This document shows, in pieces, positions 2,388-54,795 of a DNA stretch of 64,000 bases. The DNA comes from Bacteroidales bacterium. GTDB lineage: Bacteria > Bacteroidota > Bacteroidia > Bacteroidales > Tenuifilaceae. Every line of letters begins with the position of its first letter. The first letter of the stretch is position 1. Under the pieces are notes generated by a model. The model made no database searches and had not been told where the DNA came from. It saw only the letters and a program-made list of their open reading frames with translations. Both the position numbers and the translations under genes were made by a program. The stretch spans positions 248,001-312,000 of the forward strand of contig JABFRB010000001.1 of NCBI GenBank assembly GCA_013141385.1, read 5' to 3'.

Positions 2388-3158
2388 CTAAAGAATTCTT
2401 TTAATAACCCTTAATTTATGAGAGTATTTCTGGTTGTCCATGTTATAAATACCTTGATGATCAAGGCTATCAATCTTAACAAAGCCTGAACAATGAATGA
2501 TTTTTCCATTGCCAATAATAATTCCAACGTGCGTAATAATCTCCTCTTCATTATCAAAAAACGCTAGATCGCCGGGTTGTACCAAAGTTATAAAATCAAC
2601 TGTTTCGCCAATTTTCACTTGCTGCCCAGCATCGCGGGGAATATTGTATCCTAGAATTTTATAAATTACTTGGATCAGCCCCGAACAATCTATCCCGAAC
2701 GGGGAACGACCTCCCCATAGGTATGGTGAATTAATAAACTGTTTTGCCAATCTTACGGCTTCTTCGTTGATGTTTTCTTTTTTATCGCTAAATGGATTTT
2801 CTATGCATTGATATGAGTTGGTTCCACACATAAAAAGGCCATTTTCGAAATTATTCAACGATGAACCTTGGCAAAGTCTAATTGGGTACTGACCCCCAAC
2901 TTTTTTGGCTGAAAAGAGGGTGTTTGCAATTATTGGACTATCATGCTTTGTAATTAAGTCATCGGGGATATGAGTTGAGAGCTTTGAATCGATCCATCCT
3001 TCATAAGCATCATGGTTGCTGATAATCCTTGACCAACTATTGTATAATTCGATAATTGTAAAGGTTTCACCAAATAGGAGTTGGTTTACCATTTCACTAC
3101 TCTCAGAGGGTTCACGCCTAACTGCAACTAAACTTTGATTAGCTATCCCTTTACTCAT
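2388..3158 (-). CDS. NlpC/P60 (C40) cell-wall peptidase with SH3 domain, cytoplasmic
   Basis: A 256-residue peptidase of the NlpC/P60 family, which cuts gamma-D-glutamyl-diamino-acid bonds in murein peptides. Catalytic Cys is at about residue 158 in FGIDCSGL, the His at about 210 in THVGIIIG and the third polar residue near 222 (IIHCSG). The first 60 residues look like a bacterial SH3 domain (MVNQLLFGE, then SWSRI, then GWIDS). There is no signal peptide, so like YkfC it probably trims recycled muropeptides in the cytoplasm. It stands alone on the minus strand, divergent from the HD-domain gene that starts at 3370. Confidence 0.9.
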   Translation of the reverse strand: MSKGIANQSLVAVRREPSESSEMVNQLLFGETFTIIELYNSWSRIISNHDAYEGWIDSKLSTHIPDDLITKHDSPIIANTLFSAKKVGGQYPIRLCQGSSLNNFENGLFMCGTNSYQCIENPFSDKKENINEEAVRLAKQFINSPYLWGGRSPFGIDCSGLIQVIYKILGYNIPRDAGQQVKIGETVDFITLVQPGDLAFFDNEEEIITHVGIIIGNGKIIHCSGFVKIDSLDHQGIYNMDNQKYSHKLRVIKRIL

Positions 3159-13854: not shown

Positions 13855-14760
13855 TTAATTTAAAAAAGACTTTTTATCCATACTAGATTTCAATTTGCCA
13901 ACTTCTGATTTATAATGTTTATATAACAAATAGTAAATTGCCAATTCATGCTCCCTATGTTTTGTCCTGAACAAGCGATTCAGGTTCATGTGTATATAAC
14001 TAAAAATTATAGAATTAATTTCTTCTTGTATTAATTTAGTTTTTATAGATTTTACTACTTCAGTTGATGCACTTGATCTCTTTTTGATAAGTTCTACGAT
14101 TGGACTCAGTTCGGGTTCATTGTTAATAGAAGAACTTAAGAAAAAAATAATTTTTTCTCGATACATCCTATATTTAGTGTCCAGTTGATATTTTAAAGGC
14201 TTATTTAAATTAAATTCGTTAGCATAGCTAGTTTGCAAAGCATTAAGCAACTCTATTTTATCTTTTAAGTTATAGCCAAAATCATTTAATAAACAATCTA
14301 TAGAGTGTAAGCCAAAGAGCCATCTATATTCCTCACCTTCTTCTCCATCTAATAAATCTAAAAACTTAATAATGCAATTACTGTCTAGGTAAAATAGATT
14401 TTCAGAATCTTCCATTGTTTTTTCACCGTACCTTTCAATTTCTCTTTTGTAGGTGTCAATCTGTATTTTAGAAATAATTCTTTTGTCAACTAATGGGCTT
14501 ACTTCTTTATTAAAATTTGATATTACTACTATTAGCCTTTGAATATTTTGGACATGAAGTCTAATACGTAAATGCAAATCAGGATCATTGTATCGTATAA
14601 AAAACCATTTGTCTATAGTCTTCTCATTAAGAAGTTTGTTTATAAGTGGTAATAAAATACTTGTTAGTATGTAATCAGTGGATTTAGGTCCGCTATATAT
14701 TTTATAGTATAACCATTCATCACCGATAATGAAGTTTCGTTTAAGATTTATATTAGCCAT
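13855..14760 (-). CDS. lanB: Lanthipeptide dehydratase, elimination domain (SpaB_C / thiopeptide-type protein)
   Basis: A 301-residue stand-alone version of the LanB C-terminal domain, which removes glutamate from glutamylated Ser/Thr to give dehydroalanine or dehydrobutyrine. Family marks are at the start: DEWLYYKIYSG (residues 13-23), then the WFFIRYNDPDLHLRIRLHV stretch (about 53-71), the sequence in which LanB proteins bind the substrate. The C-terminal end (about 250-290) has the helix NRLFRTKHREHELAIYYLLYKHY. The start ATG overlaps the stop of the upstream glutamylation gene as TAATG, so the two are translationally coupled and must form one split LanB. Split LanB pairs are known in thiopeptide and some Bacteroidota systems. 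Confidence 0.88.
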   Translation of the reverse strand: MANINLKRNFIIGDEWLYYKIYSGPKSTDYILTSILLPLINKLLNEKTIDKWFFIRYNDPDLHLRIRLHVQNIQRLIVVISNFNKEVSPLVDKRIISKIQIDTYKREIERYGEKTMEDSENLFYLDSNCIIKFLDLLDGEEGEEYRWLFGLHSIDCLLNDFGYNLKDKIELLNALQTSYANEFNLNKPLKYQLDTKYRMYREKIIFFLSSSINNEPELSPIVELIKKRSSASTEVVKSIKTKLIQEEINSIIFSYIHMNLNRLFRTKHREHELAIYYLLYKHYKSEVGKLKSSMDKKSFLN

Positions 14761-16985
14761 TAATGCATACTTTTAAAGAAATGGAAAATAAATTGATTAC
14801 TATGATATCCGTTTGGGCCATTTATTATCGAATTTTCGCTACTAAAAAGGAATTCTTCTAATCTGAATATTTTCTGTTTTTTTATTAGTGAAAAAAGAAT
14901 TTTTATACAGATTAAGTTGTTGAGATTTAATAGTAATTCATTATCACCTTGGATGAGCTTTACATAGGATGGTATTCCTTTTTGTTTTCGCCAATCAGTT
15001 ATTACCTTGATTAGTTCATCATCTTTTAGTGTAACATATTTTTTCATTTCATCTTTATCGATATTCCAGTATGCGAGTGAAAGAATTATATTCCTATATG
15101 TCACTCTTGGGAATAGACCTACATTACTGTCTAAAAATCCCCAATCAAAATGAATTACGCTTCTTAAATTTTGAAATTGTAAATCACAAAGGAATTCATA
15201 AATTGGTAAAGAATTAAATCTGAAATTATGAGCTGTTGTTAATCTAGGAATGATTACTTTATTTAGTTTTTTTGATCTAAGTTGAATATATCTCCCATTG
15301 GGAATAGAGATATGTAGGTCTTTAATGTCAAGTTGGAAATCTTTATTTAATGTGCTTTTAGTTAAATATGGGATTTCATATTCTCTTAAAATTGGTCGTA
15401 ATAATATATTGCCTGTGCGTGATTCTGGAAGGTGCACAATTTCAGCAACAATTTCTTCTTTATAAAAGATTCTCTCGAACTCGGTAATTTCTTTAGTAAT
15501 ACTACTAATTACTTGATCTCCATGACAGAATCTACCAATTATGTTTGCCGCACTCGAATCTCCTGCTCTATCCATTTTGATATAGAAATCGTTTGTTTTA
15601 TCTTTTTTGTAAATTTCAACCATAGAAGAGAAAGTAACTGGTAAATCATTCCAATTTGTTTTTAACTCTTTCAAGTCTTCATCTGTAATTTTAATCTCAG
15701 TTTCTTTGCTGGCGATGGCTTCAACATATTTATTAAATAGCAAATCTTGAAAAGCGGTTGTGCTTATAAATGACTTTGAGTTTTGTTCGGGAATGCTAAG
15801 ATCTTCAATTAGAGGGTTTATATCACTATTCAAATTCGTTTTATTTCCGTAGCCAATGCCAATCTCGGGGTCAAGGGCTTCATATAATGGAATCTCTTCT
15901 TCTTCGTATTTACGATAAAAATTGTTCTTGAATTCTTCTAAGTAACTATTGCTCTTTTTCTCTGTAATTTTATTTAGAATTTCTATTCCTTTATATAGTC
16001 CGTCTTTAATATTTTTGTCTAAGAAATTGGTTTCGGTTTCCAAGAATAGATCTGTTTGGAATAAGAAATTTTCATCGAATTTTGCATTTAGTTTACGAAC
16101 AGCATCTTCAATTTCTTCATAGATATACATATTGGAGCCTAGTTCACCATCGTCTAAAACTCTTAAAAGGTTTTCAATTGATTTAAATGATTGGTATGAT
16201 TCGATTTTTGGTATTATTTTTTTTAGTACATCAAGTAACTGTTCGGTGAATTCTTTTCCCGAAATTGAAGGATTTAGTTGACTAAGCAGTATTTGAGAAT
16301 CAATTAGTTCGTTTATGAAACCTTTTGCCTCATCAGTGCTAATTTTTTCATCGATAAGTATTTCGACTAGGTTATTGATATATTCTCCATTTTCTGAGTT
16401 CTTAAGGATTTTTTGTAAATAGGGCGAGTTGTCAACTCCAATTGTAAAATAATTTCTGTTCCCATTAATGTACTTATATTCGATATATCTTATTTGATTG
16501 TTAGAAACGTAAATGCTTGAATTTGGATAAAACAGGATGTTTTCTCTTATTTCGGGTATTTTCTCAAGAGTTAGTGACAACGAGCACAGATAGTTCATGT
16601 CAAGCCTAGTATGTCTTTTGAATTTTTCTGGTTTGATTAAGTTAATCTTTGTTTCATTATTAAATGTACCCACAGAACATCCAGCAAATAAACCAAATGG
16701 AGTACAGCGCGATGACATTCGAGATAAGTATTTTACTAATGAAATGCCAAGAGTTTCTATCTCTTTTATATCCTTAATCTTTTTATTTTCCCATAAAACT
16801 AACCTTTGGTAGAAACTTGGAGAGGCAAGGAAAATAGCCTCTTTTATAATAGGATTTTTAAAGTACTCGATTAAGTTGGCTTCGCTGATATTATTACCTA
16901 ATATTCCCTTAATAAAGTTTATTGGAAGCAAAGGTGTTCTTAAAATATAGGAGTCAGAGATATGATATGGATGCATTTTATTCAT
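14760..16985 (-). CDS. lanB: Lanthipeptide dehydratase, glutamylation domain (LanB N-terminal)
   Basis: A 741-residue protein of the lantibiotic dehydratase N-terminal family, which transfers glutamate from Glu-tRNA to Ser and Thr of the precursor. The opening YILRTPLLPINF (about residues 13-24), SRMSSRCTPFGLFAGCSVG (about 90-108) and RHTRLDMNYLCSL (about 124-136) are the family's N-terminal signatures. About residues 460-620 hold the lyase-adjacent half (MDRAGDSSAANIIGRFCHGD and YIQLRSKKLNKVIIPRLTTAHN). No elimination domain is fused; it is encoded by the next gene, with TAATG overlap. Cytoplasmic; works with the downstream gene product and the two LanC proteins on the 69-residue precursor. 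Confidence 0.92.
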   Translation of the reverse strand: MNKMHPYHISDSYILRTPLLPINFIKGILGNNISEANLIEYFKNPIIKEAIFLASPSFYQRLVLWENKKIKDIKEIETLGISLVKYLSRMSSRCTPFGLFAGCSVGTFNNETKINLIKPEKFKRHTRLDMNYLCSLSLTLEKIPEIRENILFYPNSSIYVSNNQIRYIEYKYINGNRNYFTIGVDNSPYLQKILKNSENGEYINNLVEILIDEKISTDEAKGFINELIDSQILLSQLNPSISGKEFTEQLLDVLKKIIPKIESYQSFKSIENLLRVLDDGELGSNMYIYEEIEDAVRKLNAKFDENFLFQTDLFLETETNFLDKNIKDGLYKGIEILNKITEKKSNSYLEEFKNNFYRKYEEEEIPLYEALDPEIGIGYGNKTNLNSDINPLIEDLSIPEQNSKSFISTTAFQDLLFNKYVEAIASKETEIKITDEDLKELKTNWNDLPVTFSSMVEIYKKDKTNDFYIKMDRAGDSSAANIIGRFCHGDQVISSITKEITEFERIFYKEEIVAEIVHLPESRTGNILLRPILREYEIPYLTKSTLNKDFQLDIKDLHISIPNGRYIQLRSKKLNKVIIPRLTTAHNFRFNSLPIYEFLCDLQFQNLRSVIHFDWGFLDSNVGLFPRVTYRNIILSLAYWNIDKDEMKKYVTLKDDELIKVITDWRKQKGIPSYVKLIQGDNELLLNLNNLICIKILFSLIKKQKIFRLEEFLFSSENSIINGPNGYHSNQFIFHFFKSMH

Positions 16986-17020
16986 AAAACCCGATTTTCA
17001 ATTGTTTTATAATTGCCAAC

Positions 17021-18235
17021 TCAACTTAATAGGAAACAGTTATCCCAAGAGGGTTCATTTTCAGATATCGCAGACATTAATGACAAACCAATACCAGCAG
17101 CCCCTTCAAGTAAACCATAGTTTTTTATCCATTTATTGTCACTGTCATAGGATTTATAGCCTGCGCATCCATTATTAAAAGTAGCAAATTGTAAAGTTTT
17201 TTCATACCAGAATTGAGCCGCTTTTTTGAATTCAATAATGTTGGTTTCTTGGTATAGTCGATTGAATATATGAGCATTTCCAACTGTTCCATGGCAGAAA
17301 CCTGCATCAACAGTTAAGGTTTCTTCAAAAGATTTTTTGGTAGAACAATTCATTAAAACTTTTAATCCAAGTTTGGACATTTCGTTATTAGAATAATTTA
17401 ATCCTCCTTTGAACAAGCCAAAACCTAAGCCAAGATCTCCGTAACACCAAGCCAATCTATTTCTTGATGAATAAGTACCATCTGGTAAATCAATATATTG
17501 AGGAAAATAATAGTTAAACTTTTCAAAATCTAACGGGTGATTTTTTATAAAAAGGAATGATCTATTCAATAATTCTTTTGAAATATTTGATTCAATGTTG
17601 TACTTCGTCAGGTTTGATAATATTAGGATAATACCAGGAATGCCGTGAGCCAAGCCCATGCTATATATCTTATTTACGCTTTTATCATGATTTACTTTAT
17701 ATGCATGCCATGCAATACTTCCATCGTCAAGATTAATTCCTTGTGATTCAAATTGCTCTAACAATGGTAAGGAGAATTCTCTTAAAAGAACTTGGTTGAA
17801 TTTGAAAAAACACCATACTATACCCATTATACCATGTAAGAAATCCCAGTTTTTTGTATTAATCTCGTAGTTAATTCTCTGAACTAAAGATTCTTCTATA
17901 ATATTCCAATTTTCGAAAATTTCCTTCGTGATAAATTCTTCTTTTTCTAATTCTTTTAGAAGCCAATAAAAGCCGCATATTCCATTTGAAAGTGAATAAC
18001 CTGAGATGCTAGAATTAATTGCTTTAAAGGATTTTTCGAGATATTTATAACCAATCTCAATAAATTTGTCATTGTTGAAGAGCCTTCCATAATTAAAACA
18101 AAATAGTGAAATTCCAAGTTTCCCGGTGAAAAGAAAATCGTTTTCAATTTTTATTCTTTTTTCAAACAAAAACGCTATTTCATGAATTTTAGAAACGTAT
18201 TGTTTGTCGTCTTCAATTATTTTCTTCCAAGTCAT
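17021..18235 (-). CDS. lanC: Lanthionine synthetase C-like cyclase, copy 1 (LanC)
   Basis: A 404-residue zinc enzyme of the LanC family, which adds Cys thiols to dehydrated residues to form lanthionine rings. All ligands are present: His197 in GLAHGIPG, Cys264 in WCYGDLG, Cys314-His315 in FCHGTVG. The repeating alpha-toroid pattern (GISLFCFNYG early, GICGFYWLL, GIMGIVW, GAAGIGLSL at the end) covers the whole chain. The C-terminus NEPSWDNCFLLS mirrors that of the neighbouring paralogue. The stop of that paralogue is 6 bases upstream, so both are in one transcript. The LanB gene starts 35 bases downstream. Confidence 0.92.
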   Translation of the reverse strand: MTWKKIIEDDKQYVSKIHEIAFLFEKRIKIENDFLFTGKLGISLFCFNYGRLFNNDKFIEIGYKYLEKSFKAINSSISGYSLSNGICGFYWLLKELEKEEFITKEIFENWNIIEESLVQRINYEINTKNWDFLHGIMGIVWCFFKFNQVLLREFSLPLLEQFESQGINLDDGSIAWHAYKVNHDKSVNKIYSMGLAHGIPGIILILSNLTKYNIESNISKELLNRSFLFIKNHPLDFEKFNYYFPQYIDLPDGTYSSRNRLAWCYGDLGLGFGLFKGGLNYSNNEMSKLGLKVLMNCSTKKSFEETLTVDAGFCHGTVGNAHIFNRLYQETNIIEFKKAAQFWYEKTLQFATFNNGCAGYKSYDSDNKWIKNYGLLEGAAGIGLSLMSAISENEPSWDNCFLLS

Positions 18236-18241
18236 AATTTT

Positions 18242-19486
18242 CTAACTTAATAGTATAGAACTATCCCATACTGGTTCATCTTTTGATATGCTAGATATTA
18301 GTACCAAACCAATTCCTGATATTCCAAATTGCAAGCCATATAAAAAATTGTTATCCTCGTTAAAAAAACCTCCTATTTTATTATTTGGATTATACATATC
18401 AATCAATTTATCATGCCAATATAATGCTTGGTTAAGAAATTGGGTTTCTCCTGTTAAATGATATAGTCTGTTGTAAATATGTGTTATCCCTGCTGCACCA
18501 TGGCAAAAATAGGGTGAATTAATCTTAGTAACTATTTTAATGTCTTTGGAACATCTAAGCGCAATGTCAATTCCAATACTAATAAACTCTCTGTTTTGCA
18601 ACTTATTTCCAGCAAATACTAAAGAAAAGGCTATCCCTAAATCGCCGTAACACCAACCAATTTTAGGGTTTGAGTGGTGGTCGTGTTTATTTGTAACAGA
18701 TGGAAATAATTGATCTTCATTTTCATTTTTTTGCTTTAGTATCCATTTCACAGATTTTGTTAATACTTTCTTAATTTCTGTTTTTAAAATACCTAACTCG
18801 TAAATTTTGCTAAGAATAATTATTGTACCTAACATACCATGTGCTAAGCCTAAGTTTACTTCTTCCCCAAAAAGAATTTCTGGCATTGAGAGCGTTTGGT
18901 TCTGAATAGCATTATAATGTTTTCTATTATCTACCCATCTGATTCCATTTTCATCATCGATTGAGATTTTTCTAAAATTTTTCACCAAATTGTATAAATC
19001 TTGATAGTTGTTATCGTATTTCCCCTTTTCAATTAAATACTCACCATACCCATTAAGTCCATCGAATAGATCGATATTTCTTTTGGCGGCTTCTAAGTTT
19101 ATTGATGGTAGAATTAGTTTATCAATATTTCTGAGAGAATCTTCAAATTCCTTATCATATTTTACAACTCTGGAATTAGCCATAAAATAGTAAAACCAAG
19201 CAATACCTGATAATCCTTTCATATAGGATGAATCGATTTGAGCCGTTGATAGTTTGTTATTTAGGGCGTTAAAATAAAAATCAAGGTTACTTTTCTTCGA
19301 AAGCATAAAATCATGCCATAATAGGAAAAGGGTATTACCTACTGAACCTGTGCTCAAAGATAAATCTGTACTTGCAGGTTCAATGCTTTCGATACATTTC
19401 CTGATGTTGTTGAGTATTATGTTTGTTTCTTCGTTTCTTTCTGTAATGGGTTTCCAATTCTTTTTATCCTGTCGAAGTGATCTCAT
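18242..19486 (-). CDS. lanC: Lanthionine synthetase C-like cyclase, copy 2 (LanC)
   Basis: A 414-residue paralogue of the adjacent LanC. Zinc and catalytic residues are intact: His216 in GLAHGMLG, Cys279 in WCYGDLG, Cys328-His329 in FCHGAAG. Toroid repeats are visible throughout (GSVGNTLFLLW, GLSGIAWFY, GLNGYGEYL, GISGIGLVL). The end (DEPVWDSSILLS) aligns with the last residues of copy 1, supporting an old tandem duplication; the two have clearly diverged in between. Both copies keep every active-site residue, so neither looks decayed. It follows the OmpA-domain gene by 12 bases on the same strand. Confidence 0.92.
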   Translation of the reverse strand: MRSLRQDKKNWKPITERNEETNIILNNIRKCIESIEPASTDLSLSTGSVGNTLFLLWHDFMLSKKSNLDFYFNALNNKLSTAQIDSSYMKGLSGIAWFYYFMANSRVVKYDKEFEDSLRNIDKLILPSINLEAAKRNIDLFDGLNGYGEYLIEKGKYDNNYQDLYNLVKNFRKISIDDENGIRWVDNRKHYNAIQNQTLSMPEILFGEEVNLGLAHGMLGTIIILSKIYELGILKTEIKKVLTKSVKWILKQKNENEDQLFPSVTNKHDHHSNPKIGWCYGDLGIAFSLVFAGNKLQNREFISIGIDIALRCSKDIKIVTKINSPYFCHGAAGITHIYNRLYHLTGETQFLNQALYWHDKLIDMYNPNNKIGGFFNEDNNFLYGLQFGISGIGLVLISSISKDEPVWDSSILLS

Positions 19487-19498
19487 TTAAAAAAAGTG

Positions 19499-20518
19499 TT
19501 AGTTTTTCTTTACAATTTTAATTTCAACCCTTCGGTTGTTTTGCTTATTCTTCTCGGAAGTGTTTTCGTTTAATGGTTGAGTACTACCAAACCCCGCGTA
19601 CGATAATCTTTCCTTATTTATTCCTCTGTTTAGCAAAAAGTTGTAAACTGATTTAGCCCGTTCTTTAGAAAGTTCGTAGTTATATTTCTCTAAGCCTACA
19701 TTATCAGTATGCCCATTAATTGATATTACAATGCTACTGTTCTTTTGCAGGTATTTGATTAGTTCCTCTAATGTTTTGTAGCTTTCGGGTAGTAACGTAC
19801 TCTGGTTGAACTCGAAGTTTACATTTTTTAGGATAAATACATCGCCCTGTTTGTATTTAAATGTATCGATACTGGTTATATTTTGAAGTATGGTGTGCTC
19901 ATCAACCAAGGGGTAGACAGAGATATCATCTATAAAGTAGTCGCAAAGGCAGAATGGTTTTTTAAATAGATTAATGTAGGTTAATGTAAAATACTTTTCA
20001 CCACCATTGGCGGTATATATGCCCTCGACCTTTACCCATTTTGTTGTATCCATGAGCTCCTTATACTCATATATGCCAACCTGATTGTTGAAGTTTTCAT
20101 ATCTATATATCGAATCCATGCAGGAATATTTTGTTAATAGCCCAAATACAGGAGTTAGTGCGCATTGACTACACCAAGCCAGTTTCAAATAGAACTCAAC
20201 CCTATATTGGCTATCCTTGCTTAGTGTTTGGGTAAGTTTGGTCTGAATTGTCTCATGTTCGCCAACAACAATTCCAGCAAATCCATTTCCTGTTCTTGGA
20301 GTTCTCAGCCCTGGCATGGCCATATTGAAATAAAATGGGTTTGAACGTGAATTATATAGATCGGCACGGTTAAGTGTGTACCATCCGGTTGCCAGACTAA
20401 TTTGAGCGTAATTGTCAGGATATCTCTCAACGGTTTCAAAGTCACCGTTAAAAACTAAATTTTGGCTGAAAATAATTTTAGAGAGAAGAATTAAAAAAGT
20501 AAAAAGAGGAAACTTCAT
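19499..20518 (-). CDS. OmpA-family outer-membrane protein inside the lanthipeptide operon
   Basis: A 339-residue secreted protein with signal peptide MKFPLFTFLILLSKIIFSQ. Residues about 20-210 form a jelly-roll or carbohydrate-binding-like domain (LVFNGDFETVE, GFAGIVVGEHE, then DYFIDDISVYPL), common in Bacteroidota surface proteins. Residues about 225-335 are an OmpA peptidoglycan-binding domain: NVNFEFNQSTLLPES, NGHTDNVG, LSKERAKSVYNFLL and NNRRVEIKIVKK. It should sit in the outer membrane or periplasm anchored to murein. It lies between the precursor and the LanC genes with 12 bases to lanC, so it is transcribed with them. A role in self-protection or display of the peptide is only inference. 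Confidence 0.88.
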   Translation of the reverse strand: MKFPLFTFLILLSKIIFSQNLVFNGDFETVERYPDNYAQISLATGWYTLNRADLYNSRSNPFYFNMAMPGLRTPRTGNGFAGIVVGEHETIQTKLTQTLSKDSQYRVEFYLKLAWCSQCALTPVFGLLTKYSCMDSIYRYENFNNQVGIYEYKELMDTTKWVKVEGIYTANGGEKYFTLTYINLFKKPFCLCDYFIDDISVYPLVDEHTILQNITSIDTFKYKQGDVFILKNVNFEFNQSTLLPESYKTLEELIKYLQKNSSIVISINGHTDNVGLEKYNYELSKERAKSVYNFLLNRGINKERLSYAGFGSTQPLNENTSEKNKQNNRRVEIKIVKKN

Positions 20519-20548
20519 TTTTCAAAGATTAGATTTGATTCAAATTTA

Positions 20549-20579
20549 AGGTTTGGAGGAATTCTTCTCCTCCAAACCT
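20549..20579 (-). promoter_or_regulatory. Hairpin between precursor gene and rest of lanthipeptide operon (attenuator-like)
   Basis: Perfect 12-base inverted repeat: AGGTTTGGAGGA at 20549-20560 and TCCTCCAAACCT at 20568-20579, 7-base loop. It lies 64 bases after the precursor stop and 30 bases before the OmpA-domain gene start. There is no U run, so it is more likely a partial terminator, processing site or 3'-end stabiliser than a full terminator. A weaker TACAAT/ATTGTA repeat lies next to it near 20599-20615. Confidence 0.7.
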
Positions 20580-20642
20580 ATTACAATTTCAAGGGATAGT
20601 ACAATTTACTATTGTATTATGTCTTTTGTTAATTTCAAAATG

Positions 20643-20852
20643 TTAGTGACAAACTGCACAGCCTGAAAGAGCTCCAGTTTTAACGGCTCCACTTTGACAT
20701 GTGTGTTGAGGATAGCAACAGGATACTTGTTGTGTTGTGCAATTTTCAAGCCCTGTTTCACCACCTATAATTTTGGAAGCCTGATTCTTACTTAAATTCG
20801 AAATAGTCTCCTTGCTTAAACTTAGATTCTTAAATGAATTTTTCTTTTTCAT
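20643..20852 (-). CDS. lanA: Class I lanthipeptide precursor with GG leader
   Basis: A 69-residue precursor. Residues 1-31 are a leader of the Bacteroidota GG type: basic start, then KNLSLSKETISNLSKNQ (the LanB/LanC recognition-like segment) and a double-glycine end SKIIGG at 26-31. The core from residue 32 has six Cys (38, 45, 46, 52, 65, 68) and eight Ser/Thr (33, 39, 40, 44, 51, 54, 59, 63) in 38 residues, ending CAVCH. A core with this Cys/Ser/Thr load fits dehydration and thioether cyclisation by the LanB pair and LanC proteins encoded downstream. The ring pattern cannot be predicted safely. It follows the FtsX-like permease gene by 76 bases. Confidence 0.88.
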   Translation of the reverse strand: MKKKNSFKNLSLSKETISNLSKNQASKIIGGETGLENCTTQQVSCCYPQHTCQSGAVKTGALSGCAVCH

Positions 20853-20928: not shown

Positions 20929-23304
20929 CTATTCGTATTTCAATACATCAACTGGATTTTCGTTAGCACTTTTAATAACATTTACAATTATTGTTAATAA
21001 TACAATTAGTAGTGATATGCTTGCTATAGTAGCGATTAAGCCAAGAGTTATAGGGCTTTTATAGATGAAGTTTTCCTGCCATTTTGAGTTAATATATACT
21101 ATTATTGGCCAGCTAATGGTATTCGCAATAAGAGTTAGGATTCCATAATGATTTATGAATATCATTGCAATCTGAGTCGTTTTTGCCCCGTTAATTTTCC
21201 TAACCCCAATTTCTTTCCTTTTTTGCTGGACTGAGTACAGTGATTGGGCAAACAGCCCAATAACAGCCAAGAATATTGCTATTATGCTAAAGAAGATAAT
21301 AATCCTCTTTAATTGATCTTCTTTGTAGTAGACTATATTTTGACCTTCTTTGATATCCTTTAGGAAGAAGTTTTGATTTGGTCTGATTTCATCCCAAGTT
21401 TTTTGAACATGTTTTTTTACATCATTAAAGCTACCCTCCTTGATATTCAAAATCATATCGGTTGTATATTTTGCTTTCCCAAGAACTAAAACCATTGGTT
21501 CAATATTATCCAGCGTTGATGTTTGGTGGAAATCCGTGATAACCCCAATAACATTGCATCCTTCAATCTTTTCGTCTAAGGGATTATTAAGGCCAAGCAT
21601 TTTTGCAGTTTTCTCGTTTATTACACAATTTGATGAGTCGGTTGGTAGTTTTTCATCAAAGAAACGACCTTTTATAACTTGTATTTTCAGAAGTCTAGTA
21701 AAATTTGGATCTGTAATAATGCATTTAACTTTTATTTTTTCATTGGGACGATTTTTAGGCGGAATCATATACTCCATAGCAGTGGACAAAGGAGGTAAAC
21801 CCCAACCTGATGTTATCTCATAAATATTGGGAGATTCAAGAAGTTTTGATTTGAAATTTATGAGTAATGATTGTGTGAAATTACTTGTTGGGCAGCTAAA
21901 GATTACCTTATTTGTGCGATTATACCCAGGATCTTTGGTTTTCAGTAGATTAATTTGTCTGCTTATGCTTAAAGAGCAGCCTATAAGAATTGTAAAAACC
22001 AATATTTGAAATGTCAGTATTCCGTTTTGAATAAAACTTTTTTTTCCGAGATTTATATTATTACTAATTAAGGCATTTACTGCTTTACCCCTTGATAGTT
22101 TGTAACTTATATTGAGTCCCGAAATTAAGCCGATTAACAGAGTGATAATTAAAAAATAGAATAGTTGCTCAGTGTTGTTTAAATTAATTTTAAGTTCGAC
22201 AAAAAATAGTTGGTTAACTTTCTCTATTCCAAATTTTGCCAACAGATAAGCTAAAGGGAGACAACAAAGACAGAGTAAGAGAGATTCTGAAATAAACTGC
22301 CTCCGAATGATTGATGATGAGCCGCCTAGTACTTTTTTTATGCCAATCTCTTTTAATCTTACCTCTGTTTTGGATACTGAAAGCATAATATAGTTGAACA
22401 TTGCAACTAAAATTATTATCAGTGCTAAGGCTGAATAAAGAAGAACGAATTTCTTATTCCCTCTTGATGGTTCAAAATTTAGATGTTCTGAATTAAAGTG
22501 TATATCACAAATATTTTGTAAAGAATAGTGGTATTGTTCTTTAGGGAAATCCTTCTTTTGCTCAAACTCATTCCATTTAGCTATAAAAGGTATAACATTA
22601 TTAGGGCTTTTAAATAGAATAAAGGTTGTACAAAAGTTAAAATCCCAACTGGTTTTAATGCTATTTATCCATGGAGCATCAGAGTATACTTTTGATAGCA
22701 GGTTAACATTGGCTAGGTAGCTAAAACTGTAAGATGAATTTTCAGGCAGATCATCAATAACTGTAATAACTTCAAGTTGAAACACTCTCGATTCAATTTG
22801 AACTTCTACCATTTTTCCAATAGGATTTTGCTTTGGGAATAGTATTTCCGATTTACTCCGAGTAAGGACAATTGAAGTCGGAGAGTCTAAGCAACCTTTT
22901 ACACTACCATAGATTTGTTTTGTACTAAAAAGGTCAAAATAGTTACTAGTGCTTAGGTAGAGTTCGTTTTCAGGGTTAAAACTCTCTCCTATTTTTATTT
23001 TAACATTTTGTAATTCACATATTTGAGTTATGGATTCTACTTCGGGATAATTATTTGTAAGCAAATCACTTAAAATCATTGATGATTTTGAGGTAGACTG
23101 CTTATAGGTTTTATCTTCACATAGCACTCTGTAAATTCTTTCTCTCTTTTGTTGAAATTTATCATAGCTGGTTTCTTTTACAACATAGCTTATTATTATA
23201 AAAGAGCTTGCTAGGCTAATAGTTAACCCTAATAAGTTAATAATGAGAATGATTTTATTTTTAAGCAAACTTCGAAGGGTAGTAATAATATAATGTTTTA
23301 GCAT
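20929..23304 (-). CDS. FtsX/MacB-type ABC transporter permease
   Basis: A 791-residue permease with two MacB_PCD plus FtsX units. Helix 1 (about 21-43) is followed by a periplasmic domain, three helices (about 285-400), a further helix near 430, a second periplasmic domain and three helices near 675-785. The ends of the FtsX units read KEIGIKKVLGGSSS and KEIGVRKINGAKTT. Bacteroidota commonly encode such permeases without a neighbouring ATPase, and there is none here. It is first in the run of minus-strand genes that leads into the precursor peptide, so export, immunity or envelope-stress response is possible, but coincidence cannot be excluded. Confidence 0.85.
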   Translation of the reverse strand: MLKHYIITTLRSLLKNKIILIINLLGLTISLASSFIIISYVVKETSYDKFQQKRERIYRVLCEDKTYKQSTSKSSMILSDLLTNNYPEVESITQICELQNVKIKIGESFNPENELYLSTSNYFDLFSTKQIYGSVKGCLDSPTSIVLTRSKSEILFPKQNPIGKMVEVQIESRVFQLEVITVIDDLPENSSYSFSYLANVNLLSKVYSDAPWINSIKTSWDFNFCTTFILFKSPNNVIPFIAKWNEFEQKKDFPKEQYHYSLQNICDIHFNSEHLNFEPSRGNKKFVLLYSALALIIILVAMFNYIMLSVSKTEVRLKEIGIKKVLGGSSSIIRRQFISESLLLCLCCLPLAYLLAKFGIEKVNQLFFVELKINLNNTEQLFYFLIITLLIGLISGLNISYKLSRGKAVNALISNNINLGKKSFIQNGILTFQILVFTILIGCSLSISRQINLLKTKDPGYNRTNKVIFSCPTSNFTQSLLINFKSKLLESPNIYEITSGWGLPPLSTAMEYMIPPKNRPNEKIKVKCIITDPNFTRLLKIQVIKGRFFDEKLPTDSSNCVINEKTAKMLGLNNPLDEKIEGCNVIGVITDFHQTSTLDNIEPMVLVLGKAKYTTDMILNIKEGSFNDVKKHVQKTWDEIRPNQNFFLKDIKEGQNIVYYKEDQLKRIIIFFSIIAIFLAVIGLFAQSLYSVQQKRKEIGVRKINGAKTTQIAMIFINHYGILTLIANTISWPIIVYINSKWQENFIYKSPITLGLIATIASISLLIVLLTIIVNVIKSANENPVDVLKYE

Positions 23305-49377: not shown

Positions 49378-52300
49378 ATGAGAAAAATTTACTCTTATGT
49401 AGTAAAAATAGCATTAACACTAATAATTTTGTTTTTAACAAGTGGTGTTTATGCTCAATATCCAACATTACCTTATCACCCTACTGTAACAAATCCTGGC
49501 CTATATCCTGTGCCAACTACTCCATTTACTTATGGTGATTGGGTTACTAATGTGACTTTTGCTGGAATTAATAATACTACGGCAAATGTTTCATGGCGAA
49601 ATAATTATTCTGGTTCAACTCACGCTAGCGTTGTTTTAGGCCAGACTTATACCCTTTCTGTTACAGTAAATAATGTTGGTGCAGATTTTTCCTTCCAGTA
49701 TATTGCCGCATATATCGATTGGGATAGAAATGGTGATTGTGGTGGAAAAAGACCAGGAGATGGAGGCACAGGGGAGATATCAAGCGAATGTTATGTGTTG
49801 GGTTTACCAGGTCATGCTAGTGCTACAGTAACTTTAAATATTACTGTTCCAAATGATGCTGCAATTGGCACCACATGGTTAAGAGTGACTTTGGATGCTG
49901 ATGGTGGTAATGGTGATTATCTGTCTTACTTTGCATATGGTGAAATGGAAGAATATGCTGTTGATGTTTCAGCAGGTGTTAATAATGCACCTACTGATGT
50001 ATCTCTTTCTGCAAGTGCTGTAAATGAAAATGTTTCTGCCAACTCAGCTGTTGGTACTCTTAGTACTACCGATCCTGATGTTGGCAATACCTTTACCTAC
50101 TCATTGGTTGCTGGCACAGGTGGCACAGATAATGCCTCATTCAATATTAGCGGTAGCAGTTTGCGTATTACCAATAGTCCTGATTATGAGACTAAGAGCA
50201 GCTATTCAGTGCGAGTACGCACAACAGACCAAGGTGCATTATACTATGAGAAAGCCTATACAATTACTATTAACGATTTAAACGAAGCTCCAACCGATAT
50301 ATCTCTTTCTGCAAGTTCAATCAATGAGAATGTTGCCGGAAATTCTGCGATTGGTAATTTGAATACTACAGATCAGGATGCAGGTAATTCATTCACGTAT
50401 ACGTTGGTTGCTGGAACAGGCAGTACTGACAATGCATCGTTCAACATTAGTGGTAGCAGTTTGCGTATCACAAGCAGTCCTGATTTCGAGACAAAAAGCA
50501 GCTACTCTGTAAGGGTTCGTACCACAGATCAAGGGAGTTTAACTTACGAGAAGGCCTTTACTATCACTATTAGCAATGTTAATGAAACCCCAACAGATAT
50601 TTCTTTATCTGCAAGTTCTATCAATGAGAATGTAGTTGCTAATTCAGCAATAGGTACTCTAAGTTCTACTGATCCAGATGCTGGCACATTTACTTATACA
50701 CTTGTAGTTGGAACAGGAGATACTGATAACGCTTCATTTAACATTAGCGGTAGCAGTTTGCGTATCACTAACAGCCCCAATTTTGAGACAAAGAGTAGCT
50801 ATTCGGTGCGTGTTAGAACAACCGATCAAGGTAGTTTAACATTTGAGAAGGCTTTTACTATTACTATTAATGATTTAAATGAAACACCTACGGATATTGC
50901 TTTATCTGCAAGTTCAATCAACGAGAATGTAGTTGCCAATTCGACTGTTGGTACGCTTAGTACAACTGATTCTGATGCAGTTAACACCTTTACATATACA
51001 CTTGTAGCAGGAACTGGCAGTACGGATAACGCTTCGTTTAATATTAGCGCTAATAGTTTGCGTATCACAGGTAGCCCTGATTTTGAGACAAAGAGCAGCT
51101 ATTCTGTGCGTGTTCGTACTACAGACCAAGGTACTTTGTTCTATGAGAAGGCCTTTACCATTACTATTAATGACTTGAATGAAGCACCTACTGATATTTC
51201 CTTATCAGCAAGTTCAATCAATGAGAATGTGGTAGCAAACTCAACAGTGGGCACACTTAGTTCTACAGATCAAGATGCGGTCAACACTTTCACCTATACA
51301 CTTGTGGCGGGAACAGGCAGTACTGATAATGCCTCGTTTAACATCAGTGGAAGTGGTTTACGTATTACAAATAGCCCTGATTTTGAGACAAAGAGCAGTT
51401 ACTCTGTACGGGTTCGTACTACCGATCAAGGTACTTTGTTCTACGAGAAAGCATTTACAATTACTATCAATAATGTAAACGAAACACCAACTGACTTAGC
51501 GTTATCTGTTGCATCAATCAACGAGAATGTGGTAGCAAACTCTACAGTGGGTACTTTGAGCACAACCGACCCGGATGCTGGCAACACCTTTACCTATACT
51601 CTAGTTGCGGGTACTGGAAGTACTGACAATGCTTCGTTTAATATTAGCGGGAGTAGTCTACGCATCAATAGCAGTCCCGATTTTGAGACTAAAAACAGCT
51701 ATTCCGTAAGGGTTCGCTCAACTGATCAGGGAAGTTTATGGTTTGAAAAGGTTTTCATTGTTACTATCAATGACCTGAATGAAGCTCCTAGTGACATTAC
51801 CCTATCTGCTAGTTCAATCAATGAAAATGTTGTAGCTAACTCAACTATTGGCACATTGAGTTCAACGGATCAGGATGCAGGTAATACTTTCACCTATACA
51901 CTTGTAGCAGGAACTGGTAGTACCGATAACGCTTCGTTTAACATTAGTGGTAGTAGCTTGCGTATCACTAATAGCCCTGACTTTGAGACTAAGAGCAGCT
52001 ACTCCGTAAGGGTTCGCACTACCGATCAGGGAAGTTTGACCTATGAGAAAGCCTTTACAATCACCATTAATAATGTTAACGAAACTCCAACTGATATAGC
52101 GTTATCTGCTACATCAATCAACGAGAATGTAGTAGCAAATTCAACTATTGGTACTTTGAGCACAACGGATATAGATGCAGGTGACACTTTCACCTACACA
52201 CTTGAAGCAGGAACTGGAGATACTGATAACGCCTCATTTAACATTAGCGGTAGCAGCTTGCGTATCACCAATAGTCCAGATTTCGAAACTAAAAACAGTT

Positions 52301-54795
52301 ACTCAGTACGTATTCGAACAACAGATCAGGGTAGTTTGAATTTTGAGAAGACTTTTACTATCACTATTAACAACGTGAATGAAATACCAACTGATATTAC
52401 CCTATCTGCAAATACAATCGATGAAAATGTAGTGGGCAATTCAACAGTTGGTGGCTTAACTTCAACAGACGTTGATGCTGGTAATACATTTACTTATACC
52501 TTGGTGGCTGGAGTAGGCGATACTGATAATGCTTCGTTTAATATTAGTGGTGGTAATTTACGTATTACCAATAGCCCCGACTTTGAGACGAAGAACAGTT
52601 ACTCAGTACGTGTTCGTACTACCGATCAGGGAAGTTTGACATACGAGAAGGCCTTCACAATCACTATTAATGATCTGAATGAAGCACCAACTAATATCTC
52701 CTTATCTGCAAATTCAATAGATGAGAACGTTGCTGCTAACTCAACGATAGGCACTTTAAGTACAACAGATCAAGATGCAGGCAATACTTTCACCTATACA
52801 TTGGTTGCAGGGGCAGGGAGTTCGGATAATTCTTCATTTAGTATTAGCGGCAATGAATTGCATATAATATCAAGTCCTGATTACGAAACTAAGAGTAGTT
52901 ATCTTGTACGTTTTCGCTCAACAGATCAAGGCAGTTTATATTTTGAGAAGTCATATGCCATTTCAATTCATAATGTAAATGAATCACCTGTTGTTACTGC
53001 TTCGCAAAGTTTCAGTATAAATGAAAATTCAATTGTTGGGACAGTTGTAGGAACAGTTTCTGCTACTGATCCTGATGCTGGTACTACATTTAGCAATTGG
53101 ACAATCACATCTAACGTAAATCCGAATACTAATGGTACTGATGCATTTGCTATAAATTCAACCACAGGTCAAATTACAGTTTTTGATGCTGGAGATTTAG
53201 ATAGAGAAGCAAACTCTTCATTTACAATAAAAGTGACTGTTAGTGATGGTACTAATACAAGTGCCGAAGAGAGCGTTACTATAAATTTAAACGATGTGAA
53301 CGATGTAGTTCCTGTAATAACAGCATCGCAAGTATTGTATGTTACCGAACAATCACCAAATGGTACAACTGTTGGAACAGTAGTAGCAACTGATGGTGAT
53401 GTAACAGCAACGACTTTCCAGAGTTGGACAATTACCGCTGGAAATGGTGGTGGGTATTTTACGATAAATTCATCAACTGGAGTTATTACAGTGGTTGATA
53501 ATACAGGACTAAATTCAAATATCAATCAAAGTTTCACATTGACTCTAACAGTATCCGATGGTGTAAATACTAGCCAGTCTCAAACAGTTTCGATTACTGT
53601 TAGTGCAGTTAATGATGAAAACCCTGTTGTTACTCCAAATCAATCATTTGTTATTAATGAGAATTCTGCAAATAGTACTGTAGTTGGTACTGTTTTAGCA
53701 ACTGATCCAGATTATGGAACCAATTTCCAAAATTGGACTATTACTTCAGGTAATACTGATAATACATTCGCAATTAACTCATCTAGTGGTCAGATAACAG
53801 TTAATAATTCAACAGCTTTAGATTATGAAACTGTTACATCATTCTCATTAACCGTTCAAGTTTCTGATGGATTACATACTGCAAGTGGTGTAGTCACAGT
53901 AAATCTGAATAATTTGAATGATAATGCTCCTACAATTAATGGAGGAACTTTCGCACTTGATGAAAATAGTTCTAATGGGACATCAGTATGTACTATTTCT
54001 GCAAATGATCCAGATGGAATCTTGAATGTATTGACTTTCTCATTAGTAAGCACAAAAGCCTCTAGTCCATTTGCAGTTGATTTAAATACTGGTGTTGTAT
54101 CAGTTAATAATTCTACATTGCTGGATTATGAAACCATTCAATCTTATTCGGTAACTATTAGAGTTTCTGACGGAACTCATTCTGCTGACGGAGTGTTTAC
54201 AATCAATTTAAACAACTTAAATGACAACTCACCTGTTGTTACAGATGCAACGTTTGCAATAGATGAAAACAGTGCAAATAGTACAGCAGTTGGAACTGTT
54301 GCTGCAACTGATGCGGATGGAGTATTAAATAGCCTAACCTATTCCATTACATCTGGAAATACTAATAATGCATTTGCTATTAATTCAGCAACTGGTGCAA
54401 TAACTGTAAATAACACTCTGGCACTGGATTTTGAAACAACTCCTATATTCAATCTTGTTGTAAGTGTATCGGATGTTACTCATTCCAGTGATGGTAATAT
54501 TACAATTAACCTGAATGATTTAGTGGAAACAGGTATTGATGATAATAAAGAATTTAGCTACAAGATTTATCCTAACCCTGCGGTTGATAAGGTAAATATT
54601 TACTTAAACAACCCATCATCTGAATCTTATACAATTGAGATTGTAAGGATTGATGGTGTTAGATTCTATCAAAGTAGTGAAAAGAACCTATCAGGAATAA
54701 AAACTATTGATCTAACAGGAATCACAAGTGGTATATACTTTATAAGAGTATATAACCAGAAGTTTATGTGTACTGATAAACTCATAGTAGAATAG
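49378..54795 (+). CDS. Giant T9SS-exported cadherin-repeat adhesin-like protein
   Basis: An 1805-residue surface protein. Signal peptide to about residue 26 (SGVYAQ); a GEVED-like beta domain (about 55-200, with YIDWDRNGDCGG, GEMEEYAVDV); then fifteen cadherin-like domains of about 100 residues. Ten (about residues 203-1201) are nearly identical, with TDISLSASSINENVVANS, then DNASFNISGSSLRITNSPDF and YSVRVRTTDQG; five (about 1202-1735) are diverged. The end (about 1730-1805) is a type A T9SS sorting domain: YKIYPNPAVDKVNIYL and IDLTGITSGIYFIRVYNQ. It should be secreted and attached to the cell surface, probably for adhesion. Fourth gene of its block, 19 bases downstream of the binding-protein gene. 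Confidence 0.92.
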   Translation: MRKIYSYVVKIALTLIILFLTSGVYAQYPTLPYHPTVTNPGLYPVPTTPFTYGDWVTNVTFAGINNTTANVSWRNNYSGSTHASVVLGQTYTLSVTVNNVGADFSFQYIAAYIDWDRNGDCGGKRPGDGGTGEISSECYVLGLPGHASATVTLNITVPNDAAIGTTWLRVTLDADGGNGDYLSYFAYGEMEEYAVDVSAGVNNAPTDVSLSASAVNENVSANSAVGTLSTTDPDVGNTFTYSLVAGTGGTDNASFNISGSSLRITNSPDYETKSSYSVRVRTTDQGALYYEKAYTITINDLNEAPTDISLSASSINENVAGNSAIGNLNTTDQDAGNSFTYTLVAGTGSTDNASFNISGSSLRITSSPDFETKSSYSVRVRTTDQGSLTYEKAFTITISNVNETPTDISLSASSINENVVANSAIGTLSSTDPDAGTFTYTLVVGTGDTDNASFNISGSSLRITNSPNFETKSSYSVRVRTTDQGSLTFEKAFTITINDLNETPTDIALSASSINENVVANSTVGTLSTTDSDAVNTFTYTLVAGTGSTDNASFNISANSLRITGSPDFETKSSYSVRVRTTDQGTLFYEKAFTITINDLNEAPTDISLSASSINENVVANSTVGTLSSTDQDAVNTFTYTLVAGTGSTDNASFNISGSGLRITNSPDFETKSSYSVRVRTTDQGTLFYEKAFTITINNVNETPTDLALSVASINENVVANSTVGTLSTTDPDAGNTFTYTLVAGTGSTDNASFNISGSSLRINSSPDFETKNSYSVRVRSTDQGSLWFEKVFIVTINDLNEAPSDITLSASSINENVVANSTIGTLSSTDQDAGNTFTYTLVAGTGSTDNASFNISGSSLRITNSPDFETKSSYSVRVRTTDQGSLTYEKAFTITINNVNETPTDIALSATSINENVVANSTIGTLSTTDIDAGDTFTYTLEAGTGDTDNASFNISGSSLRITNSPDFETKNSYSVRIRTTDQGSLNFEKTFTITINNVNEIPTDITLSANTIDENVVGNSTVGGLTSTDVDAGNTFTYTLVAGVGDTDNASFNISGGNLRITNSPDFETKNSYSVRVRTTDQGSLTYEKAFTITINDLNEAPTNISLSANSIDENVAANSTIGTLSTTDQDAGNTFTYTLVAGAGSSDNSSFSISGNELHIISSPDYETKSSYLVRFRSTDQGSLYFEKSYAISIHNVNESPVVTASQSFSINENSIVGTVVGTVSATDPDAGTTFSNWTITSNVNPNTNGTDAFAINSTTGQITVFDAGDLDREANSSFTIKVTVSDGTNTSAEESVTINLNDVNDVVPVITASQVLYVTEQSPNGTTVGTVVATDGDVTATTFQSWTITAGNGGGYFTINSSTGVITVVDNTGLNSNINQSFTLTLTVSDGVNTSQSQTVSITVSAVNDENPVVTPNQSFVINENSANSTVVGTVLATDPDYGTNFQNWTITSGNTDNTFAINSSSGQITVNNSTALDYETVTSFSLTVQVSDGLHTASGVVTVNLNNLNDNAPTINGGTFALDENSSNGTSVCTISANDPDGILNVLTFSLVSTKASSPFAVDLNTGVVSVNNSTLLDYETIQSYSVTIRVSDGTHSADGVFTINLNNLNDNSPVVTDATFAIDENSANSTAVGTVAATDADGVLNSLTYSITSGNTNNAFAINSATGAITVNNTLALDFETTPIFNLVVSVSDVTHSSDGNITINLNDLVETGIDDNKEFSYKIYPNPAVDKVNIYLNNPSSESYTIEIVRIDGVRFYQSSEKNLSGIKTIDLTGITSGIYFIRVYNQKFMCTDKLIVE
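49984..52980 (+). repeat. Ten tandem 300-bp repeats within the cadherin gene
   Basis: Ten units of 100 codons (unit 3 has 99) coding for the near-identical cadherin domains. Protein identity between units is far higher than with the five later domains, while synonymous positions vary, so the array combines selection for the protein with recent amplification or gene conversion. Confidence 0.9.

Follow-up and report, generated by a model that had tools for sequence, protein, structure and literature searches.

What would a peptide pathway with a single precursor do with two cyclases, one of which has lost an otherwise conserved active-site residue? This question is raised by a run of six genes (13855–20852, minus strand) within the 64-kb stretch of Bacteroidales DNA that we surveyed (hereafter the window), which encodes a LanA precursor, an OmpA-domain protein, two LanC cyclases (LanC1 and LanC2) and a LanB whose glutamylation and elimination domains (PF04738 and PF14028) sit on two separate proteins (LanB-N and SpaB_C). 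Taken as a whole, the pathway is very likely that of a class I lanthipeptide, encoded by a biosynthetic cluster of a known Bacteroidota type. An earlier first-pass annotation of this DNA had made the same assignment, which is now supported by Pfam enzyme families, by NCBIfam leader models, and by profile matches of the LanC proteins to NisC and MadC and of LanB-N to NisB. The overall design of the cluster is ordinary for the phylum, and the divergent LanC1 is its unexpected part.

LanC1 and LanC2 are identical at 115 of 386 residues, and both contain the three zinc ligands (Cys, Cys and His). At each of the eight sites checked, LanC2 carries the most frequent residue. In LanC1, the zinc-binding Cys pair and His are retained along with the catalytic His, the Asp and the Tyr, as they are in its orthologue in a second species (described below). 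However, alignment to NisC places a Lys of LanC1 at the position of NisC Arg280 (position 294 of MadC), and a Phe replaces the Glu of the LLEG motif; the active-site Arg of canonical LanC proteins is thus missing from LanC1, as it is from the orthologue. In a 103-row alignment of the LanC family, this site is occupied by Arg in 94 rows, by Lys in two (LanC1 and its orthologue), and by Tyr, Leu, Pro or a gap in the other seven, all of which except L163 (Pro) also lack the zinc ligands. (Our first LanC alignment omitted LanC proteins shorter than 330 amino acids and copies of loci already included, and the 103-row alignment added further LanC proteins of at least 300 amino acids; in the zinc-less rows the residue at the Arg site depends on the alignment, being Asp in the first and Tyr in the second.) The LLEG Glu is itself variable, being present in 78 of the 103 rows and replaced in other tandem copies by Gln (L060 and L155) or Asp (L121). 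Five other tandem LanC pairs that we checked have the Arg in both copies, although some copies vary in the Tyr or in the Glu of LLEG. The first-pass annotation had described two intact LanC proteins, a description that holds for both reading frames and for the zinc site of LanC1, but not for its active site as a whole, from which the conserved Arg and the commoner Glu are absent.

An AlphaFold2 model of LanC1 (predicted local distance difference test score, pLDDT, 83.1) has the LanC fold, with MadC as its best match in the PDB and NisC as its fourth. Leaving aside the orthologue, no LanC among 393 genomes and the best matches listed exceeds 34% identity to LanC1 over at least 100 residues, and the match at 34% spans only half its length. 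Its stem is very long (2.27–2.77 changes per site in two trees), and we are unsure of its exact position; a caveat to these trees is that LanC1 and L032_9924, both on long branches, come together in them. A common origin of LanC1 and LanC2 is not rejected (approximately unbiased test, p-AU 0.415), and an old local duplication is neither shown nor rejected. In the trees as drawn, tandem LanC pairs are placed separately, and we tentatively reject an origin shared by all of them.

The same run, in the order FtsX–LanA–OmpA–LanC1–LanC2–LanB–SpaB_C, is present in a second species, the Bacteroidales metagenome-assembled genome Cfx3-06 (G002; L046/L029). The proteins are 89–96% identical to their orthologues, and the precursors share 66 of 69 residues, differing at two core residues and one leader residue. 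Ratios of nonsynonymous to synonymous substitution rates (dN/dS) are 0.11–0.31 across all seven genes, with LanC1 the highest at 0.31, which in this single comparison suggests purifying selection throughout, on LanC1 too. Nucleotide identity in the LanC–LanB block (13855–19400 compared with L029) is mostly 0.93–0.99, dropping to 0.87 over one stretch of 500 bases, and is 0.85–0.94 from FtsX to OmpA and in the flanks. The values of dS are 0.06–0.26 in the LanC–LanB block, versus 0.39–0.40 for FtsX and OmpA (LanA has 0.16, on few sites), which hints that the enzyme block may have been exchanged between the species or held more tightly than its neighbors. No empty site was found in the genus, in which the flanking MutS-like gene is closely matched only in the second species.

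The leader of LanA scores above the cut-offs of the NCBIfam class I lanthipeptide leader model NF038153 (37.3 bits; cut-off 22) and of NF038158 (30.7 bits; cut-off 27), contains the LxLxKx5L motif as LSLSKETISNL, and ends in Gly-Gly (GG); the 38-amino-acid core that follows contains six Cys and eight Ser/Thr residues. In all six frames of the window, LanA is the sole open reading frame (ORF) of 25–130 amino acids, counted from the first start codon, with a GG or GA site and at least two later Cys. We therefore rejected a second, hidden precursor: this screen finds none in the window, and the L1a and L1b leader models find none elsewhere in the genome, other leader types not having been searched. 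The source genome (5.5 Mb in 53 contigs, 98.96% complete) contains two LanC, one LanB-N, one SpaB_C, and one match each to the L1a and L1b models (both to LanA), all in the cluster. The proposal that one precursor is handled by one LanB pair and two cyclases is thus borne out at the level of the genome by these enzyme counts and leader models.

The suggestion that the core might be new also stands among the sequences examined. We compared it with the GG-leader ORFs of the loci studied (up to 132, with cores of at least 8 amino acids; some may not be real precursors, and MIBiG was not part of the set), among which only the orthologous core is close, with the top score of 212. The next scores belong to cores of L119 (49, with 0 of 200 shuffles as high), L060 (47, with 3 of 200; its other core scores 35, with 31 of 200) and L062 (36, with 0 of 200). 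The core of L060, a tandem-LanC locus, resembles that of LanA in the SGC-x-C look of its C-terminus, and the likeness of the LanA core to those of L119, L060 and L062 is weak. In two of the loci surveyed, a single LanC and a single split LanB are accompanied by an array of precursor-like GG-leader ORFs: eleven in L119 (6722–9666) and six in L039 (9522–11094).

SpaB_C has the consensus residue at every column conserved in at least 95% of 81 rows. Among the best 80 of 557 confirmed relatives of LanB, the SpaB_C ORF is separate in 79 and fused in one (a few of these ORFs are truncated at a contig end or split into two pieces). The split LanB, which had been singled out as a mark of interest, is therefore the rule here, and we rejected it as a novelty. 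In Bacteroidota at large, the gene order LanC–LanB–SpaB_C recurs, and GG precursors frequently lie upstream of it.

From these gene contents we infer the following chemistry, division of labor and route of export. The leader would recruit the modifying enzymes, LanB-N would glutamylate Ser and Thr residues of the core using Glu-tRNA, and SpaB_C would remove the glutamate by elimination to yield dehydroalanine and dehydrobutyrine, to which zinc-dependent LanC2 would add Cys to form thioether rings. LanC1, its zinc site kept, would most likely work on the same precursor and make part of the rings, and a C39-type protein encoded elsewhere would cut the leader after GG. We favor this role for LanC1, in which it is a second functional cyclase acting on LanA, and consider it moderately probable. 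Several observations weigh against the account. The Lys of LanC1 stands in place of an Arg that is proposed to be essential in the paper on the structure of MadC (PMC9889658). The six C39-peptidase matches of the genome (three on proteins of 718–733 amino acids) are on other contigs, with none on the contig of the window; these distant proteins are candidates to serve LanA. Sites resembling σ70 promoters between 13000 and 23600 occur at chance level (58 found versus 56.2 expected), so that the operon is deduced from gene spacing. Finally, only one orthologous cluster was found. Elsewhere in the genus, no C39 exporter was found by a motif screen of the stretches around five other clusters (L029–L033), where the L029 stretch stops 46 bases past the SpaB_C gene and leaves its downstream side unseen.

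The OmpA gene, which the first-pass annotation had counted within the lanthipeptide locus, and the FtsX/MacB-type permease gene upstream of LanA have an even chance of being passengers that lie outside the lanthipeptide system. The C-terminal domain of the OmpA protein is found in 26 of the 27 genomes searched (its own included), and relatives whose match extends through much or the whole of the N-terminal part are found in four genomes (G003, G013, G030 and G032), all without a LanC match. The N-terminal part itself has a weak, below-cut-off likeness to CBM_4_9 and a model too poor (pLDDT 61) for a fold search. Among the 80 LanB relatives, the operon OmpA lies beside LanB in one (L046) and FtsX relatives occur in three (L046, L068 and L076), as well as in L032; in L078, a more distant OmpA-domain protein of 652 amino acids is more than 6 kb away on the opposite strand. 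Also in keeping with passenger status, the two species differ less in the LanC–LanB block than in FtsX and OmpA. On the other hand, both genes are co-directional with the rest, closely spaced, and in the same place in both species, and FtsX genes are found near the same-genus cluster L032 too. No ATPase domain was found for the permease, which is a candidate either for the exporter or for a mere neighbor.

Less probable than a second functional cyclase, if a serious contender, is the possibility that LanC1 is degenerating or has no catalytic role, serving for instance as a scaffold of the synthetase complex, while LanC2 makes all the rings. The Lys at an otherwise conserved Arg site, the Phe in place of the commoner Glu, the very long stem branch and the highest dN/dS of the cluster are what such a protein might have. 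However, LanC1 in both species keeps the zinc ligands together with the catalytic His, Asp and Tyr, its dN/dS is well below 1, its frame is intact in both species, and the variability of the LLEG Glu across the family weakens the case for inactivity. We think it rather unlikely that LanC1 is instead a functionally new LanC, its zinc site intact but its acid/base Arg replaced by Lys and its LLEG Glu by Phe, with a task of its own on the shared precursor. Were this so, LanC1 might set another group of rings, another stereochemistry or another nucleophile, with two dissimilar cyclases building one peptide in order. That the locus makes a thiopeptide-type ribosomally synthesized and post-translationally modified peptide is highly improbable: the SpaB_C match TIGR03891 is named 'thiopeptide-type' and thiopeptides use split LanB (PMC7268733), but two LanC are present, the genome has no match to the YcaO cyclodehydratase expected of a thiopeptide system, its single SpaB_C leaves none spare for cycloaddition, and the LanA leader is of the class I lanthipeptide type.

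Of 65 loci from the best 80 whose stretch includes no less than 3.2 kb before the start of LanB, five have two LanC upstream of LanB (L046, L060, L071, L080 and L121), 49 have one and 11 have none. A further genome, G298 (L171), has two adjacent LanC on a contig that ends before any LanB. In a 2010 survey (PMC3091789), a class I cluster of Frankia is noted to have two LanC, as is a further cluster that lacks a precursor. Because the arrangement recurs in the relatives and was reported in Frankia, two cyclases per cluster are uncommon but not new. The pairs of L060, L071, L080, L121, G298 and Frankia EAN1pec (PMC3091789) likewise stand side by side or nearly so, and in all of these except G298 beside one LanB. 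Unlike the present cluster with its Lys-bearing LanC1, L060, L071, L080, L121 and G298 keep the Arg in both copies; the Frankia pair is known to us by description. Genome G154 (L172; G154:C186) has four LanC, three GG precursors (in three LanA–LanC units) and one LanB of 1067 amino acids, which from its length may be fused; here several cyclases are perhaps served by one dehydratase. In L053, L055 and L057, second LanC-like proteins without zinc ligands lie near 3100, about 5.6 kb upstream of a LanC–LanB pair.

Walker and colleagues (PMC7268733) described Bacteroidetes leaders of the LxLxKx5L...GG type and noted that LanB is split in a number of class I clusters. The present cluster has the leader motif and GG end of those systems and, in common with the relatives examined here, also the split LanB and the order LanC–LanB–SpaB_C, but differs in its two LanC (the first strongly divergent), in the OmpA gene within the run, and in the lack of an adjacent C39 exporter. 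The pinensins were the only Bacteroidota class I lanthipeptides isolated by 2020 (PMC7268733), and two more were later made in E. coli (PMC9993889). The pinensin cluster, which is named as a split-LanB case (PMC7268733), shares with ours the split LanB and its origin in Bacteroidota. In the available open-licence literature we found no report of the present cluster. The locus adds a new core sequence to the class I lanthipeptides of Bacteroidota, and a class I system in Bacteroidales, an order in which a survey of 1,136 genomes reported no LanB (PMC10352776). With two cyclases and one precursor, it is also a clean case in which to ask whether LanC enzymes share out rings and what the conserved Arg does. 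In contrast to that survey, LanB genes are present in the Bacteroidales-titled records L046, L060, L066, L076, L082, L084, L092, L095, L098, L099, L111, L114, L119 and L121.

Table 1. Genes and other features of the lanthipeptide locus, in window positions.
Feature	Positions	Strand	Evidence
FtsX/MacB-type ABC (ATP-binding cassette) permease	20929..23304	-	Family profiles; 76 bp upstream of LanA
LanA precursor, 69 amino acids	20643..20852	-	NF038153 match; LxLxKx5L leader ending IIGG
LanA–OmpA gap with hairpin	20519..20642	-	Fold and alignment with second species
OmpA-domain protein	19499..20518	-	Pfam OmpA, 4.7e-24
LanC1, divergent cyclase	18242..19486	-	Pfam LANC_like, 1.2e-44
LanC2, class I cyclase	17021..18235	-	Pfam LANC_like, 4.3e-45
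LanB N-terminal (glutamylation) protein	14760..16985	-	PF04738 Lant_dehydr_N, 1.1e-135
SpaB_C (glutamate elimination) protein	13855..14760	-	PF14028 Lant_dehydr_C, 7e-72

The six genes of the run are where the first-pass annotation had placed them, on a single strand, tightly packed and complete, although that annotation left out the co-directional permease gene upstream. Intergenic distances are 124 bp (LanA–OmpA), 12 bp (OmpA–LanC1), 6 bp (LanC1–LanC2) and 35 bp (LanC2–LanB), and LanB and SpaB_C share one base within TAATG. The LanA–OmpA gap contains a strong hairpin, with a stem of about 12–13 bp, that is present in the second species too, where two changes in the 3' arm both leave G-U pairs. 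It is not among the terminator-like sites with a T run called in the region, and it is possible that it forms an RNA 3' end or acts as an attenuator. Two matches (20604 and 19383) to a Bacteroidota promoter motif were set aside as evidence for lack of a control for chance. Elsewhere in the window, a stand-alone protein with a phage tail collar domain (PF07484; 47569–48138) lies between an unassigned protein of 327 amino acids and a periplasmic-binding-like protein, and a cadherin-repeat protein of 1805 amino acids (49378–54795) has a Por secretion sorting domain at its C-terminus.

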